From Nitrosomonadales bacterium (GTDB lineage Bacteria; Pseudomonadota; Gammaproteobacteria; Burkholderiales; Gallionellaceae), in NCBI GenBank assembly GCA_016214695.1, contig JACRNY010000002.1:1-64000 (forward strand): DNA of 64,000 nt. The letters are read 5' to 3'. Below, in pieces: positions 3,896 to 64,000 of this stretch (positions are counted from its first letter, which is position 1; each line of letters opens with the position of its first letter). A program made the position numbers and the translations under genes. The notes under the pieces are model-generated. The model was not told the DNA's origin and ran no database searches. It was given only the letters and a program-made list of their open reading frames with translations.

Positions 3896-3922
3896 CCGTT
3901 CGCCCTGAGCCTGTCGAAGGGT
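3896..3922. repeat. 27-bp REP-like repeat, copy 1
   Basis: The 27-bp sequence starting CCGTTCGCCCTGAGCC is identical to 26133-26159. It contains the TTCGnnCTGAGCCTGTCGAA imperfect palindrome common as an intergenic repeat in proteobacteria. It lies just after the stop of the glycosyltransferase gene. Confidence 0.85.
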
Positions 3923-3972
3923 CGCCGCAAAGCGGCGTGCTGAATGTGCGGATGGCTAAAATCAAAAGCAAC

Positions 3973-4541
3973 ACCGTCGGGGGTAGCCCGACAGCTAGTT
4001 ACTTTCTTTTGCTTCGCCAAAAAGAAAGTAACCAAAGAAAAGGCGACCCCAATCCGCCACCTCTTCGAGGTTCCCTGCGTTGCTCGGCAGGTCAGGCTTC
4101 CTCATAAACTCGCACGATCCGCTGCGCGTCCACGTGCTCAAACATATTCGTCAGAATTCCCTGACCCGCCTCCGCTACTCGGTGGCGGAACAGGGGAGGG
4201 AAAAGCGAAAATCAAAACCCCAAACCGTAGGTGGGCGCAAAGCGCCCACCTACTCACAAACAAAAAGCGTGGGCTATGCCCACACAAAATCGCCGTTGAT
4301 TTTCCATCCCCTGTGCGCCGCCTCGATATTTCGCAAACAAGCGGAGGTTTAGGCGAGCACTGTTCGAGCTCCGCGGTGGGGCACGTTTTGTGTGCCCCGC
4401 TAGGGCAAGTTGCGCAGCCCCGCTTGTTTGCGAAATATCGAGGGAACCCCGAAGGGGCGGCACACCGGGGGCGCCTTCTTTGGGTTACCTTTCTTGGCAA
4501 GACAAGATAAGGTAACTAGCTGTCGGGCTACCCCCGACGGT
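3973..4541. repeat. 569-bp composite palindromic element, gene-free
   Basis: The ends are a perfect 30-bp inverted repeat (3973-4002 and 4512-4541, starting ACCGTCGGGGGTAGCCC). Pairing continues imperfectly inwards for roughly another 80-100 bp through the GAAAGTAACC(A)AAAGAA motif. Nested inside are a 12-bp-stem hairpin (4227-4253), a perfect 24-bp inverted repeat (4321-4344 and 4420-4443, CCTCGATATTTCGC...) and smaller stems around GTGGGC and GGGGCAC. No open frame in it looks like a protein. The GAAAGTAACCAAAGAAAAGG motif is a widespread genomic repeat in beta- and gammaproteobacteria. This accounts for most of the 3876-4633 gap; the remaining bases show nothing else. Confidence 0.85.
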
Positions 4542-4633
4542 TTTCTTTGAACCCATACAGCGCAATGCCCGTTGGTTATCGGGCCCTATGCATGCTACGC
4601 TTGCCGTTATTATTTATTCGAGAGGGATATGAA

Positions 4634-26132: not shown

Positions 26133-26215
26133 CCGTTCGCCCTGAGCCTGTCGAAGGGTGCTTTGAATACCGTTCATGGCTCGACTTGCCTTTAGTCCTG
26201 AGCGAAGTCGAAGGA
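26133..26215. repeat. REP-like repeats upstream of the TauE gene
   Basis: Bases 26133-26159 are identical over 27 bp to 3896-3922. A diverged relative of the same motif (TAGTCCTGAGCGAAGTCGAAGGA) follows at 26193-26215. Together they fill most of the space between the EVE and TauE genes. Confidence 0.85.
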
Positions 26216-27816: not shown

Positions 27817-27855
27817 ACCCTCTCCCCTGCCCCTCTCCCGCTTGCGGGAGAGGGG
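27817..27855. repeat. REP element (CCCTCTCCC type) upstream of livF
   Basis: CCCTCTCCCCTGCCCCTCTC followed by CCGCTTGCGGGAGAGGGG: a palindrome around CTCTCCCGC/GCGGGAGAG. Related copies are at 54911-54950 and 63940-63974, and a reduced one (CTCCCGCGCGGGAG) is at 44597-44610. Confidence 0.85.
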
Positions 27856-54910: not shown

Positions 54911-54950
54911 TACCCTCTCCCCAACCCTCTCCCGGAAGCGGGCGAGGGAG
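54911..54950. repeat. REP element (CCCTCTCCC type) between ddl and ftsQ
   Basis: CCCTCTCCCCAACCCTCTCC followed by CGGAAGCGGGCGAGGGAG: the same family as 27817-27855 and 63940-63974. It fills 40 of the 54 bases between the ddl stop and ftsQ start; the arm nearest ftsQ reads GGGGAGAGGG on the coding strand. Confidence 0.85.
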
Positions 54951-54964
54951 CAATCGTGATAAAT

Positions 54965-55876
54965 CTATTTTCCAATTCCGGCCCCCTCCAGTATCTGCAC
55001 CACCAGCTGCTCGAAACTGATGCCCGCCTGGCGTGCCGCCATCGGCACCAGGCTGTGGTCGGTCATGCCGGGCGAGGTGTTGATCTCCAGCAGGTAGGGT
55101 TTGCCGTCCTCGCCGCGCAGGAAGTCCACCCGCCCCCAGCCCTGGCAACCCACCAGCTGGAACGCGAGCTGCGCAAGGTGCTGCATCTCCGCTTCCTGCT
55201 CGGCGCCCAATCCGCACGGGCACAGGTAACGCGTGTCGTCGCGCAGGTATTTCGCCTCGTAATCGTAGAACTCGTTGGCCGGCTCGATCTTGATCACCGG
55301 CAGGGCGCTGCCGTTGAGGATCGCCACCGTGTACTCGCCGCCGCTCATGTAACTCTCGGCGATCACCACCTTGTCATGTTTCGCCGCCTCGGCGTACGCC
55401 GCCGGCAGCTCCTCCACCGTCTTCACCTTCACCACGCCGACGCTGCTGCCTTCGCTGGCGGGCTTCACGAACAGCGGCAGATCGAGATGGTCGGCCACCG
55501 CGTTCCAGTCCGTCGGTCCGGTCAGCGCCTCGTACTCGGGGATGGGCAAGCCGGCCGCCTGCCACACCAGCTTGGTGCGCCACTTGTCCATGGCGATGGC
55601 CGAAGCCATCACGCCGCTGCCGGTGTAGGGAATACCCAGCAATTCCAGCGCACCCTGCACCGTGCCGTCTTCGCCGAAGCGGCCATGCAGCGCGATGAAC
55701 ACGCGCTCGAACTCCTCTTTCTTCAGATCGGACAGATCCCGTTCCGCTGGGTCGAAGGCATGCGCATCCACGCCGCTCCTCTGCAGCGCAGCCAGTACCG
55801 CACTGCCGCTCTTCAACGACACCTCGCGCTCCGCCGAGCGTCCGCCGAACAACACCGCCACTTTGCCAAATTTCAT
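54965..55876 (-). CDS. ddl: D-alanine–D-alanine ligase
   Basis: The 303-residue ATP-grasp ligase makes the D-Ala-D-Ala dipeptide of peptidoglycan. The start [21 protein letters not shown] is family-typical, with catalytic segments [12 protein letters not shown] near 64 and [14 protein letters not shown] near 270. Its ATG overlaps the murB stop in TGATG, giving coupling. Length is normal for the DdlB type. Confidence 0.97.
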
Positions 55877-61841: not shown

Positions 61842-62945
61842 TTATCTGAGTTTCAGTGTTGCCAATCCAATGAGCACCAACAACATAGTGATGATCCAGA
61901 ACCTCACCACCACTTGGGTCTCTTTCCAGCCCTTCTGCTCGAAGTGGTGGTGCAGCGGTGCCATCAGCAGGATGCGCTGACCGGTGCCGTACTTGCGCTT
62001 GGTGTACTTGAACCACGACACCTGCAGCATCACCGACACCGCCTCCACCACGAACACGCCGCCCATGATGAACAGCACCAGTTCCTGGCGGATGATCACC
62101 GCCACCGCGCCCAGTGCCGCGCCCAAAGCCAGCGCGCCGACATCGCCCATGAATACTTCCGCGGGATAGGCGTTGAACCAGAGGAAAGCCAGACCGGAGC
62201 CGGCGATGGCGGCGCAGAAGATCGCCAGTTCGCCAGCACCCGGGATATACGGCTCGCCCAGGTATTTGGAAAACTCGGCATGGCCGGCGACATAGGCGAA
62301 GATCGCCAGCGCCGCCGCCACCATCACCGTCGGCATGATGGCGAGGCCGTCGAGACCGTCGGTCAGGTTCACCGCGTTGCTGCTGCCGACGATGACCAGA
62401 TACACCAGCACGACGAAACCGACCGCCCCCAGCGGGAACACCACGTTCTTGAAGAACGGCACAATGAGCTCGGTCTGCGCCGGCAACGTGGCGTGCTGCA
62501 CCAGATAGATGCCGACCGCCAGCGCGATCAGCGATTGCCAGAACATCTTGGCGCGTGCGGACAATCCGTCCGGATTGCGATGCACCACCTTGCGGTAATC
62601 GTCCACCCAGCCGATGGCACCCACGCCCAGCGTGGTCAGCAGCACCACCCAGATGTAGGGGTTGTGCAGATCGCCCCACAACAGCGTGGTGATGGCGACC
62701 GAAGCCAGAATCAGCGCGCCGCCCATGGTCGGCGTGCCCGCCTTGACCAGGTGAGTCTGCGGACCGTCGCTGCGCACCGACTGGCCGATCTTCATCGCGG
62801 TCAGTTTGCGTATCATCCACGGTCCCAGCATGAAGGAGATGACCAATGCGGTCATCGCCGCCATCACCGCGCGCAGCGTGATGTAGTTGAAAACGCTGAA
62901 TGTGCGCACGTCCTGCGCCAGCCATTGGCTCAATGCGAGCAGCAT
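61842..62945 (-). CDS. mraY: phospho-N-acetylmuramoyl-pentapeptide transferase
   Basis: The 367-residue polytopic enzyme (about ten helices) links phospho-MurNAc-pentapeptide to undecaprenyl phosphate, giving lipid I. The catalytic segments GTPTMGG near 71, [10 protein letters not shown] near 196 and [11 protein letters not shown] near 330 are present. ACAAGGAGGAAAC is a strong Shine-Dalgarno. It overlaps the murF 3' end by 16 bp. Confidence 0.98.
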
Positions 62946-64000
62946 GTTTCCTCCTTGTATAGCGCGCAGAATTGCACGACCCTCTCCATCTTCATGAAGC
63001 GCGAACCTTTCACCAGCACGGTGGTTTGCGCGTCCATCTCTTTATCCAGCACCGCGCAGAGTTCTTCGATGCTGTCGAAATGTTTTGCAGCGGCACCGAA
63101 CTCCTGCACTGCGCCTTTGCTCAGCGCGCCCAGCGCGAACACCTGTTCGATCCCCAGTTCGCGCGCTGCGATGCCGATCTCGCGATGGAATTGCGCCGCG
63201 TCATCGCCCAGTTCGCCCATGTCGCCGAGCACGAAGATCCGTTTCCCCTTCGTTTGCGCCAGCACTTCCAGTGCCGCGTGCATGGAGGCGGGGTTGGCGT
63301 TGTAGGTGTCGTCGATCAGCAGCGCGCCGTGCAGCGCCTTTTTTCGCTGCAGGCGTCCGGCCACTCCGCCGAACGCTTCCAGTCCGTTGATGATGGCCTC
63401 GGGCGACACCTGCAGTGTCAGCGCTGCCGTAGCGGCTGCCAGAGCGTTGCGGGCGTTATGCTCGCCCGGTACCTGCAGCGTCACCTTCAGTCCGCAGAAG
63501 GGGGAATGGATCAGCAACGTACCGCCATAGCCCTGCGCCACCCACTCGCCCTTTACCGCGGCCTCGCGCTCCAGCGCAAAATCGAGCACGCGATGCTGGC
63601 CAGCCAGCTCCCGCCACAGTGCCGCATGCGCATCGTCGGCATTGATGACCGCGGTGCCGTCGCTTTTCAATCCGGCGAAGATCTCGCCCTTGGCACGTGC
63701 CACACCTTCCACCGAACCGAGCCCCTGCAGATGAGCCCCGGTCGCGTTGTTGACCAGCGCCACATCTGGCCTTGCGAGACGGGTGAGATAGTCGATCTCG
63801 CCGGGATGGTTCATGCCCATCTCGATCACCGCATAGCGATGGGTCGCATTCATGCGCAGCAGGGTGAGCGGCATGCCGATGTCGTTGTTGAAGTTGCCCT
63901 TTGTTGCCAATACAAATCCGTCGGCATCTTCGGAGTGTTCCCTCTCCCCAACCCCCTCCCGGGGGGAGGGGGAGCCATCGCGAAGATCGTCTTTGATTTT
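62930..64000 (-). CDS. murF: UDP-MurNAc-tripeptide–D-Ala-D-Ala ligase, N-terminus beyond window
   Basis: The window holds the last 356 codons and stop; the start and the P-loop lie past the right edge. Visible family features: [44 protein letters not shown], and [11 protein letters not shown]. Upstream of GNFNND, a REP element is read through in frame, giving the peptide [18 protein letters not shown] between the expected P-loop region and the ATKGNFNND motif. The frame stays open to base 64000, so this is not a frameshift. Confidence 0.95.
63940..63974. repeat. REP element (CCCTCTCCC type) in frame inside murF
   Basis: CCCTCTCCCCAACCCCCTCC followed by CGGGGGGAGGGGGAG, of the same family as 27817-27855 and 54911-54950. 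It is translated on the minus strand as part of murF ([12 protein letters not shown]). Confidence 0.85.

Follow-up and report, generated by a model that had tools for sequence, protein, structure and literature searches.

A palindromic repeat inserted in frame within murF, and unrelated palindromes at the same protein sites across a genus of Gallionellaceae

Results

The stretch of DNA under study (the window) comprises the first 64,000 nucleotides of a contig from a gallionellaceal genome, i.e. positions 1-64000 of contig C1 of G000, a 2.66 Mb assembly of 9 contigs. At its end lies murF, which encodes UDP-MurNAc-tripeptide--D-Ala-D-Ala ligase on the minus strand; recognised from its open frame and from Pfam matches, the gene occupies positions 62930-64000 and continues to contig position 64399. 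Extension of the sequence past position 64000, which the initial annotation had recommended, yielded a complete MurF of 489 aa, in which the Mur_ligase, Mur_ligase_M and Mur_ligase_C domains all score above the Pfam cut-off, and showed murE and mraY to be its neighbours, one on each side. Within murF lies R1, a 63-nt palindromic repeat that is read in frame at contig positions 63940-64002 (minus strand) and was delimited as an insert by MAFFT and by a covariance model (E = 1.3e-16), this copy being one of the 8 from which the 63-position model was built. It had been claimed in the initial annotation that the murF frame stays open through a CCCTCTCCC-type element at 63911-64000, and the stop-free translation on the minus strand is confirmed. 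The position given there was right and the extent is revised here, as R1 runs 2 nt past the window and forms the core of a larger imperfect palindrome of about 63906-64005 (minus strand), recognised from RNA folding, the sequences of the site and the alignment. The 3' arm of this outer palindrome encodes EDADGFVL and is common to the congener G011 and, less closely, to G028.

The sequence CCCTCTCCC is found 6 times in the window as compared with 0.57 expected, and none of 100 shuffles reached 6. A 107-nt context of the murF copy folds at -43 kcal/mol, with 9 of 200 shuffles folding as well, and in this fold the 3' flank (GAAGATGCCGACGGATTTGTATTGG in G000) pairs with the 5' arm. In the protein, the insert amounts to 22 aa relative to congeners (MAFFT) and follows directly after the P-loop helix; residues 137-157 have no counterpart in the solved Pseudomonas aeruginosa homologue 4cvk, and fall between its residues 129 and 130. 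In an AlphaFold2 model of MurF the mean pLDDT is 91, with residues 141-160 at 56-57, and in that of NnrD, another protein of G000 with an R1 insert, it is 82, with residues 103-117 below 50; in both proteins the insert has the look of a disordered loop in a model that is confident elsewhere.

A second R1 copy in the window is located at 54913-54978 (minus strand; covariance-model E = 1.8e-13), where the ddl stop meets the ftsQ start, the gene names being taken from the flanking frames. This copy is identical in G010 at 65 of 66 nt, the flanks being about 85% identical. Other repeats were also seen, including a GC-rich palindrome, CCCTCTCCCCTGCCCCTCTCCCGCTTGCGGGAGAGGGG, at 27818-27854, just upstream of a minus-strand ABC ATPase-like gene that we take to be LivF-like; a pair of 54-nt inverted repeats at 3970-4023 and 4491-4544 (85% complementary, 467 nt between them); and an identical 27-nt repeat, CCGTTCGCCCTGAGCCTGTCGAAGGGT, at 3896-3922 and 26133-26159. 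Moreover, several of the eight loci L039-L046 contain a further, longer family of repeats, GCCCCTCTCCCGCAAGCGGGAGAGGGGTTGGGG...CCCTCATCCCCAGCCC.

We have compared the murF genes of 30 genomes of the genus, that of G000 included, which were obtained from 28 of the 30 loci first read together with L309 and L310. The MurF loci L023 and L037 belong to other genera and stand outside this count, as do L050, L058, L061 and L094 (a stop in the translated stretch) and L309 (partial) outside the structure alignment. The segment from the P-loop to the DIG motif measures 37-38 aa in the 27 insert-free genomes, all with a clean short loop, as against 60 aa in G000, 57 aa in G028 and 60 aa in G011. That the segment is an insertion relative to relatives, which the initial annotation had argued from knowledge of the family, is shown by the gap against 4cvk and by its absence from 27 of the 30 MurF proteins of the genus. 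In named genomes the same segment is 34-47 aa long, and none of the 73 readable MurF loci, among at least 80 of which 7 lacked a pattern match, exceeds 47 aa. The named records closest to G000 are Gallionella and Nitrosomonadales MAGs, which makes it a probable member of Gallionellaceae. G011 and G028 are distant congeners, and carry the same murF insert as G000 in a diverged form with the frame kept; the three inserts are 78-83% identical, and the flanking gene 75-80% over 400 nt. Since they share both the repeat and a 3' flank (GAAGATGCCGACGGATTTGTATTGG in its G000 form) that is absent from the empty relatives shown, the insertion into murF most likely arose once. The murF palindrome is a genuine and old in-frame insert that seems to be tolerated. 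Separately, a C-terminal stretch of the MurF of a named Gallionella MAG (L047, 3001-4473), LGVGSGKTASDSPLPTSHFPG, also looks palindrome-encoded.

R1 is a multi-copy family. The model gave at least 95 hits at E<=1 and at least 41 at E<=1e-4 in G000, the best 24 all being full length at E<=1.5e-7, and it scored at E<=1e-4 once or more in 31 of the 34 genomes of the genus (0 to 47 hits per genome), all these counts being lower bounds, as at most 150 candidates were scored per genome (of about 400 in G000). Both orientations occur. The best 30 R1 loci of G000 were translated, and for 20 of these a Pfam scan was made of the likely frames. In ten of the 30 copies R1 is read in frame within a conserved domain, or in the gap between the two halves of one: R1 falls inside the Pfam match in eight proteins (MurF, NnrD, UvrD, NifN, a CobB-like protein, an HI0933-like flavoprotein, a GDPD enzyme and BioH); in an APH-fold kinase and in FolC it separates two aligned domain halves. 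Ten further copies sit in open frames without being covered by the matched domain, most of them near one end, with the start codon uncertain there, and the remaining ten, outside the Pfam scan, look intergenic or unclear. The label REP, i.e. an extragenic element, which had been given to the murF palindrome, is misleading for R1. At R1, the UvrD, FolC and BioH proteins of G000 have extra residues relative to solved homologues, and the phmmer alignments of NnrD, NifN, the APH-fold kinase and the HI0933-like protein to their homologues are less clean. Several R1 copies were also noticed in the nif genes of G000 (L131, L134, L150 and L151), nifN having two, one internal and one C-terminal, and one copy each lies ahead of the conserved domains in NifQ and in a NifB-like protein.

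In an alignment of 61 R1 copies from 50 chosen loci, which was fitted to the model, 20 cells of the hairpin had changed on both sides as compared with 5.7 in shuffles, a modest signal of covariation. Of six R1 folds tested, two stood out, weakly: the 107-nt murF context and the copy in folC, which 8 of 200 shuffles matched. The remaining four, among them the 63-nt murF copy by itself, were no better than shuffles (27 to 64 of 200).

The uvrD, folC, nnrD and bioH orthologues were taken from the genus and aligned, and inserts of at least 10 aa were counted; many of the genomes are incomplete assemblies. L215 (uvrD of G022, partial), the nnrD of G030 and the folC of G009 lie outside the alignments, and match coordinates in the latter two suggest further inserts. 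Inserts at one site were found in 7 of 29 genomes for uvrD, 15 of 30 for nnrD, 9 of 29 for bioH and 3 of 30 for murF, and folC has two such sites, filled in 9 and 7 of 30 genomes, respectively. All the aligned inserts are in frame by construction, since all were read from open frames. By the same rule, no insert of at least 10 aa was found in two control genes, mraY (28 genomes, with a short row for G018) and murE (30 genomes, in the portion within the fetched loci, with a short row for G009). These rates of reuse are biased upward because the five genes were chosen for having R1 in G000, a choice that does not explain the unrelated families met in other genomes. Away from the main uvrD site, an 11-aa insert is common to G016 and G020. 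Furthermore, among 37 sampled R1 loci of relatives (the best hit of each of 27 genomes and ten other high scorers), 16 are at sites already known from G000, as judged by eye from the flanking peptides.

The family names used here for the palindromes are our own. The first folC site is occupied by R1-like sequences in G000, G015, G018 and G033, by the GTAGGTCGGG type (GTAGG) in G002, G014 and G016, by the form CTGGATTCCCGC..GCGGGAATGACG in G011, and by a double GC-rich palindrome in G020. At folC site 2, near residue 268 of the G000 protein (loci L216-L245), the inserts are 34-59 aa long and consist of paired GC-rich palindromes. The nnrD site holds R1-like sequences in eight genomes (with model hits in all eight), the GC-rich variant CCCTCACCCTGCCC or similar in G009, G019 and G020, a CATTCCGGC-type element in G013 and G027, a GTAGG-type element in G016 and a TAGGAGCG-type element in G010. 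The bioH site is filled by R1-like sequences in G000 and G029, by GTAGG in G014, by a GGGTATCGC palindrome in G005 and G030, by a double GC-rich palindrome in G010, and by unclassifiable sequences in G011, G020 and G022. Unrelated palindromes are thus present at one site in folC, nnrD and bioH. In uvrD the inserts differ in reading frame, giving PSPQPSP-like peptides in four genomes and PHPNPLP-like peptides in three, and in cobB the frame likewise differs at one site.

For GTAGG and ATTCC, two of the fills, the copies in the genomes were counted. The exact GTAGGTCGGG repeat is present in 18 to 162 copies in 5 of the 12 genomes searched and absent from the other 7, and all five GTAGG inserts (in folC, nnrD and bioH) sit in three genomes in which the repeat is multi-copy. 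The ATTCC repeat turned up in all but one of the 13 genomes searched (12 of 13), and its inserts are therefore no test of whether the fill of a site follows the repeats of its genome.

The history of the sites was followed through the copies themselves and through their occupancy. Among 73 R1 copies, 44 are at shared sites, and for 31 of these 44 the nearest neighbour is at the same site in another genome, as compared with a mean of 2.1 and a maximum of 8 in 500 label shuffles; as same-site copies are mostly nearest neighbours, many of them share descent. On a tree of 34 genomes built from five concatenated proteins, occupancy needs 3 changes for murF, 6 for uvrD, 7 for folC site 1, 4 for folC site 2, 7 for nnrD and 7 for bioH. 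It is about as scattered as shuffled labels for murF, uvrD, folC site 1 and bioH, and somewhat clumped for folC site 2 (4 of 500 shuffles as low) and nnrD (14 of 500).

G007 and G027 are the closest pair on the tree and are not alike at nnrD, where G027 has a 41-aa insert. Counted per 80 nt, 8 and 6 mismatches lie to the left of the insert and 9 to the right (23 in total). Downstream of the adjoining window there are none over the next 560 nt, and upstream there are 0-3 per window except for one window, away from the insert, with 10; farther away than about 800 nt upstream or 640 nt downstream, the differences climb again. This pattern suggests that the insert was carried by a short recombination tract, more distant pairs being uninformative. 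In 12 of 21 same-site pairs, the identity of the insert is above that of both 400-nt flanks. Some insert alleles seem to be short of a few host codons (folC of G002, nnrD of G013 and G027, and uvrD), and in folC of G000 most host codons beside the insert are kept. At the murF, uvrD, folC and nnrD sites shown, neither a target duplication nor TA-ended terminal inverted repeats were recognised by eye, and this, together with the apparent replacement of host codons, seems unlike classical transposition.

Discussion

Short palindromes that are read in frame inside genes have been described in several bacterial groups. The palindromic elements of Rickettsia (RPE-1 to RPE-7) and Wolbachia lie in frame in unrelated conserved genes; their positions coincide between orthologues, and in the proteins they fall in exposed regions (PMC3767692, PMC2229807), an RPE unit being 105-146 bp (PMC2229807). 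R1, compared with RPE by description, resembles them in that 10 of its 30 best copies in G000 are also in frame in conserved protein genes. It differs in its 63 positions, below the RPE unit even if the murF copy reaches about 100 nt with its outer arms, in the clean empty sites of most congeners and the clearly unrelated families at one site, and in a host that looks like a free-living betaproteobacterium. Moreover, intragenic GTAG- and CGTC-tagged REPs have been found translated inside genes of several species, the UvrD/REP helicase gene included, and in the recB genes of two Xanthomonas different REPs lie at about one site, according to a 2013 report (PMC3733652). Neither tag is present within the 68 aligned columns of 8 R1 copies, and the reuse described here, unlike that case, extends over four or more genes in some 30 congeners. 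Inserts of the GTAGGTCGGG type in G002, G014 and G016, on the other hand, look like REPs of the GTAG kind, judged by their letters. G000 has three Y1_Tnp (RAYT) loci of 3.3 kb, each with one or two 9-mers that resemble the core at up to one mismatch (no control), and no support for mobilisation of R1 by a RAYT was found at them. Bacterial MITEs with open frames, namely Correia/NEMIS (107-bp), ERIC and YPAL, are palindromic, lack autonomy and have been joined to genes without loss of frame (PMC2229807, PMC10969869); R1 is likewise multi-copy, short and hairpin-forming by covariation, and is shorter.

The reading that explains the data best as a whole, to which we give a probability of about 0.8, is that a non-autonomous palindrome occupies a permissive loop of MurF, as one case of a genus-wide reuse of sites. 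A MITE- or REP-like palindromic repeat, probably non-autonomous to judge from its size, would have entered a predicted exposed loop of MurF, most likely once and by a putative insertion enzyme or other route, and would since have persisted there with the frame intact, translated into a probably disordered and roughly neutral loop of 22 aa. A few permissive loops of housekeeping enzymes would have been filled repeatedly in frame by whichever palindromic families a lineage has, and filled and empty alleles would then have been swapped between congeners by short-tract recombination, which is suggested by the one informative pair. The proposal of the initial annotation that a palindrome had entered murF near its ATP domain with the frame unbroken is supported by the relatives, by the solved homologue 4cvk and by the genome-wide family, and its observation stands confirmed. 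As unrelated families are found at one site and empty sites are clean, repeated filling is favoured, with common descent and exchange on top. A stronger version, which in our judgement has an even chance of being correct, would make the loops recurrent docking sites that are refilled independently by active palindromes, with alleles hopping between species by short-tract recombination and the loops evolving by palindrome swapping.

The main rival holds that each site received one ancient insertion, which descended vertically and then diverged, became nested with other repeats or disappeared from most lineages, so that there is no hotspot and the different families stem from later nesting or divergence. 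It accounts for the nearest-neighbour relations of same-site copies, for the 3' flank shared by the three murF copies and lacking in the empty relatives shown, for the clumping at folC site 2 and nnrD, and for a GGATTC-like stretch by R1 in the folC of G000, G015, G033 and G018 that resembles, by eye, the ATTCC element of G011. The scatter of occupancy at murF, uvrD, folC site 1 and bioH speaks against it, as do the GTAGG inserts, which occur only where that repeat is multi-copy when 7 of 12 genomes lack it, and the empty sites that retain host codons missing from insert alleles. We consider it unlikely on the whole, and divergence of one ancestral insert is unlikely as the sole cause, since the GTAGG inserts track the repeat content of their genomes.

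Less probable still, and in our view improbable, is that the inserts are held by selection, e.g. as an mRNA hairpin that tunes expression or as a useful loop peptide. The identity of inserts above both flanks in just over half of the same-site pairs and the covariation of hairpin pairs could be read in this way, but the covariation may be older than the insertion, the murF genes of 27 of 30 genomes do without the insert, one site is served by several unrelated peptides, and the insert loop is predicted to be disordered. Finally, an ordinary variable linker, a low-complexity indel or an assembly error is highly improbable: the segment does vary among the named MurF loci, but the 63-nt repeat recurs through the genome and the genus, two other assemblies have the insert in frame at the same murF site, the intact frame over three Mur domains and these two congeners lead us to reject a sequencing error or pseudogene, and the gap against 4cvk together with the congener alignment leads us to reject an ordinary linker.

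Conclusions

In-frame palindromes are known already, and what is new here is the genus-wide reuse of sites by unrelated families. In the open-licence PMC literature, we found no report of an in-frame palindrome in Gallionellaceae, nor of sites, in more than one gene, that are each occupied by several unrelated palindromes. Whether different palindromes at one protein site reflect a hotspot or one old, diverged insert was left open in the work on Rickettsia, the R. japonica authors favouring one diverged origin for RPE-4, -6 and -7 without excluding hotspots (PMC3767692). The genus described here provides 34 genomes, of which 29-30 were compared for each gene, and among them a given site may be empty, filled, or filled by another palindrome; in one unrelated family, GTAGG, the inserts match the repeat content of the genomes that carry them; the question of hotspot versus single origin thus becomes directly testable in this genus. 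The same sites also map natural loops of MurF, UvrD, FolC, NnrD and BioH that tolerate roughly 10-60 foreign residues.
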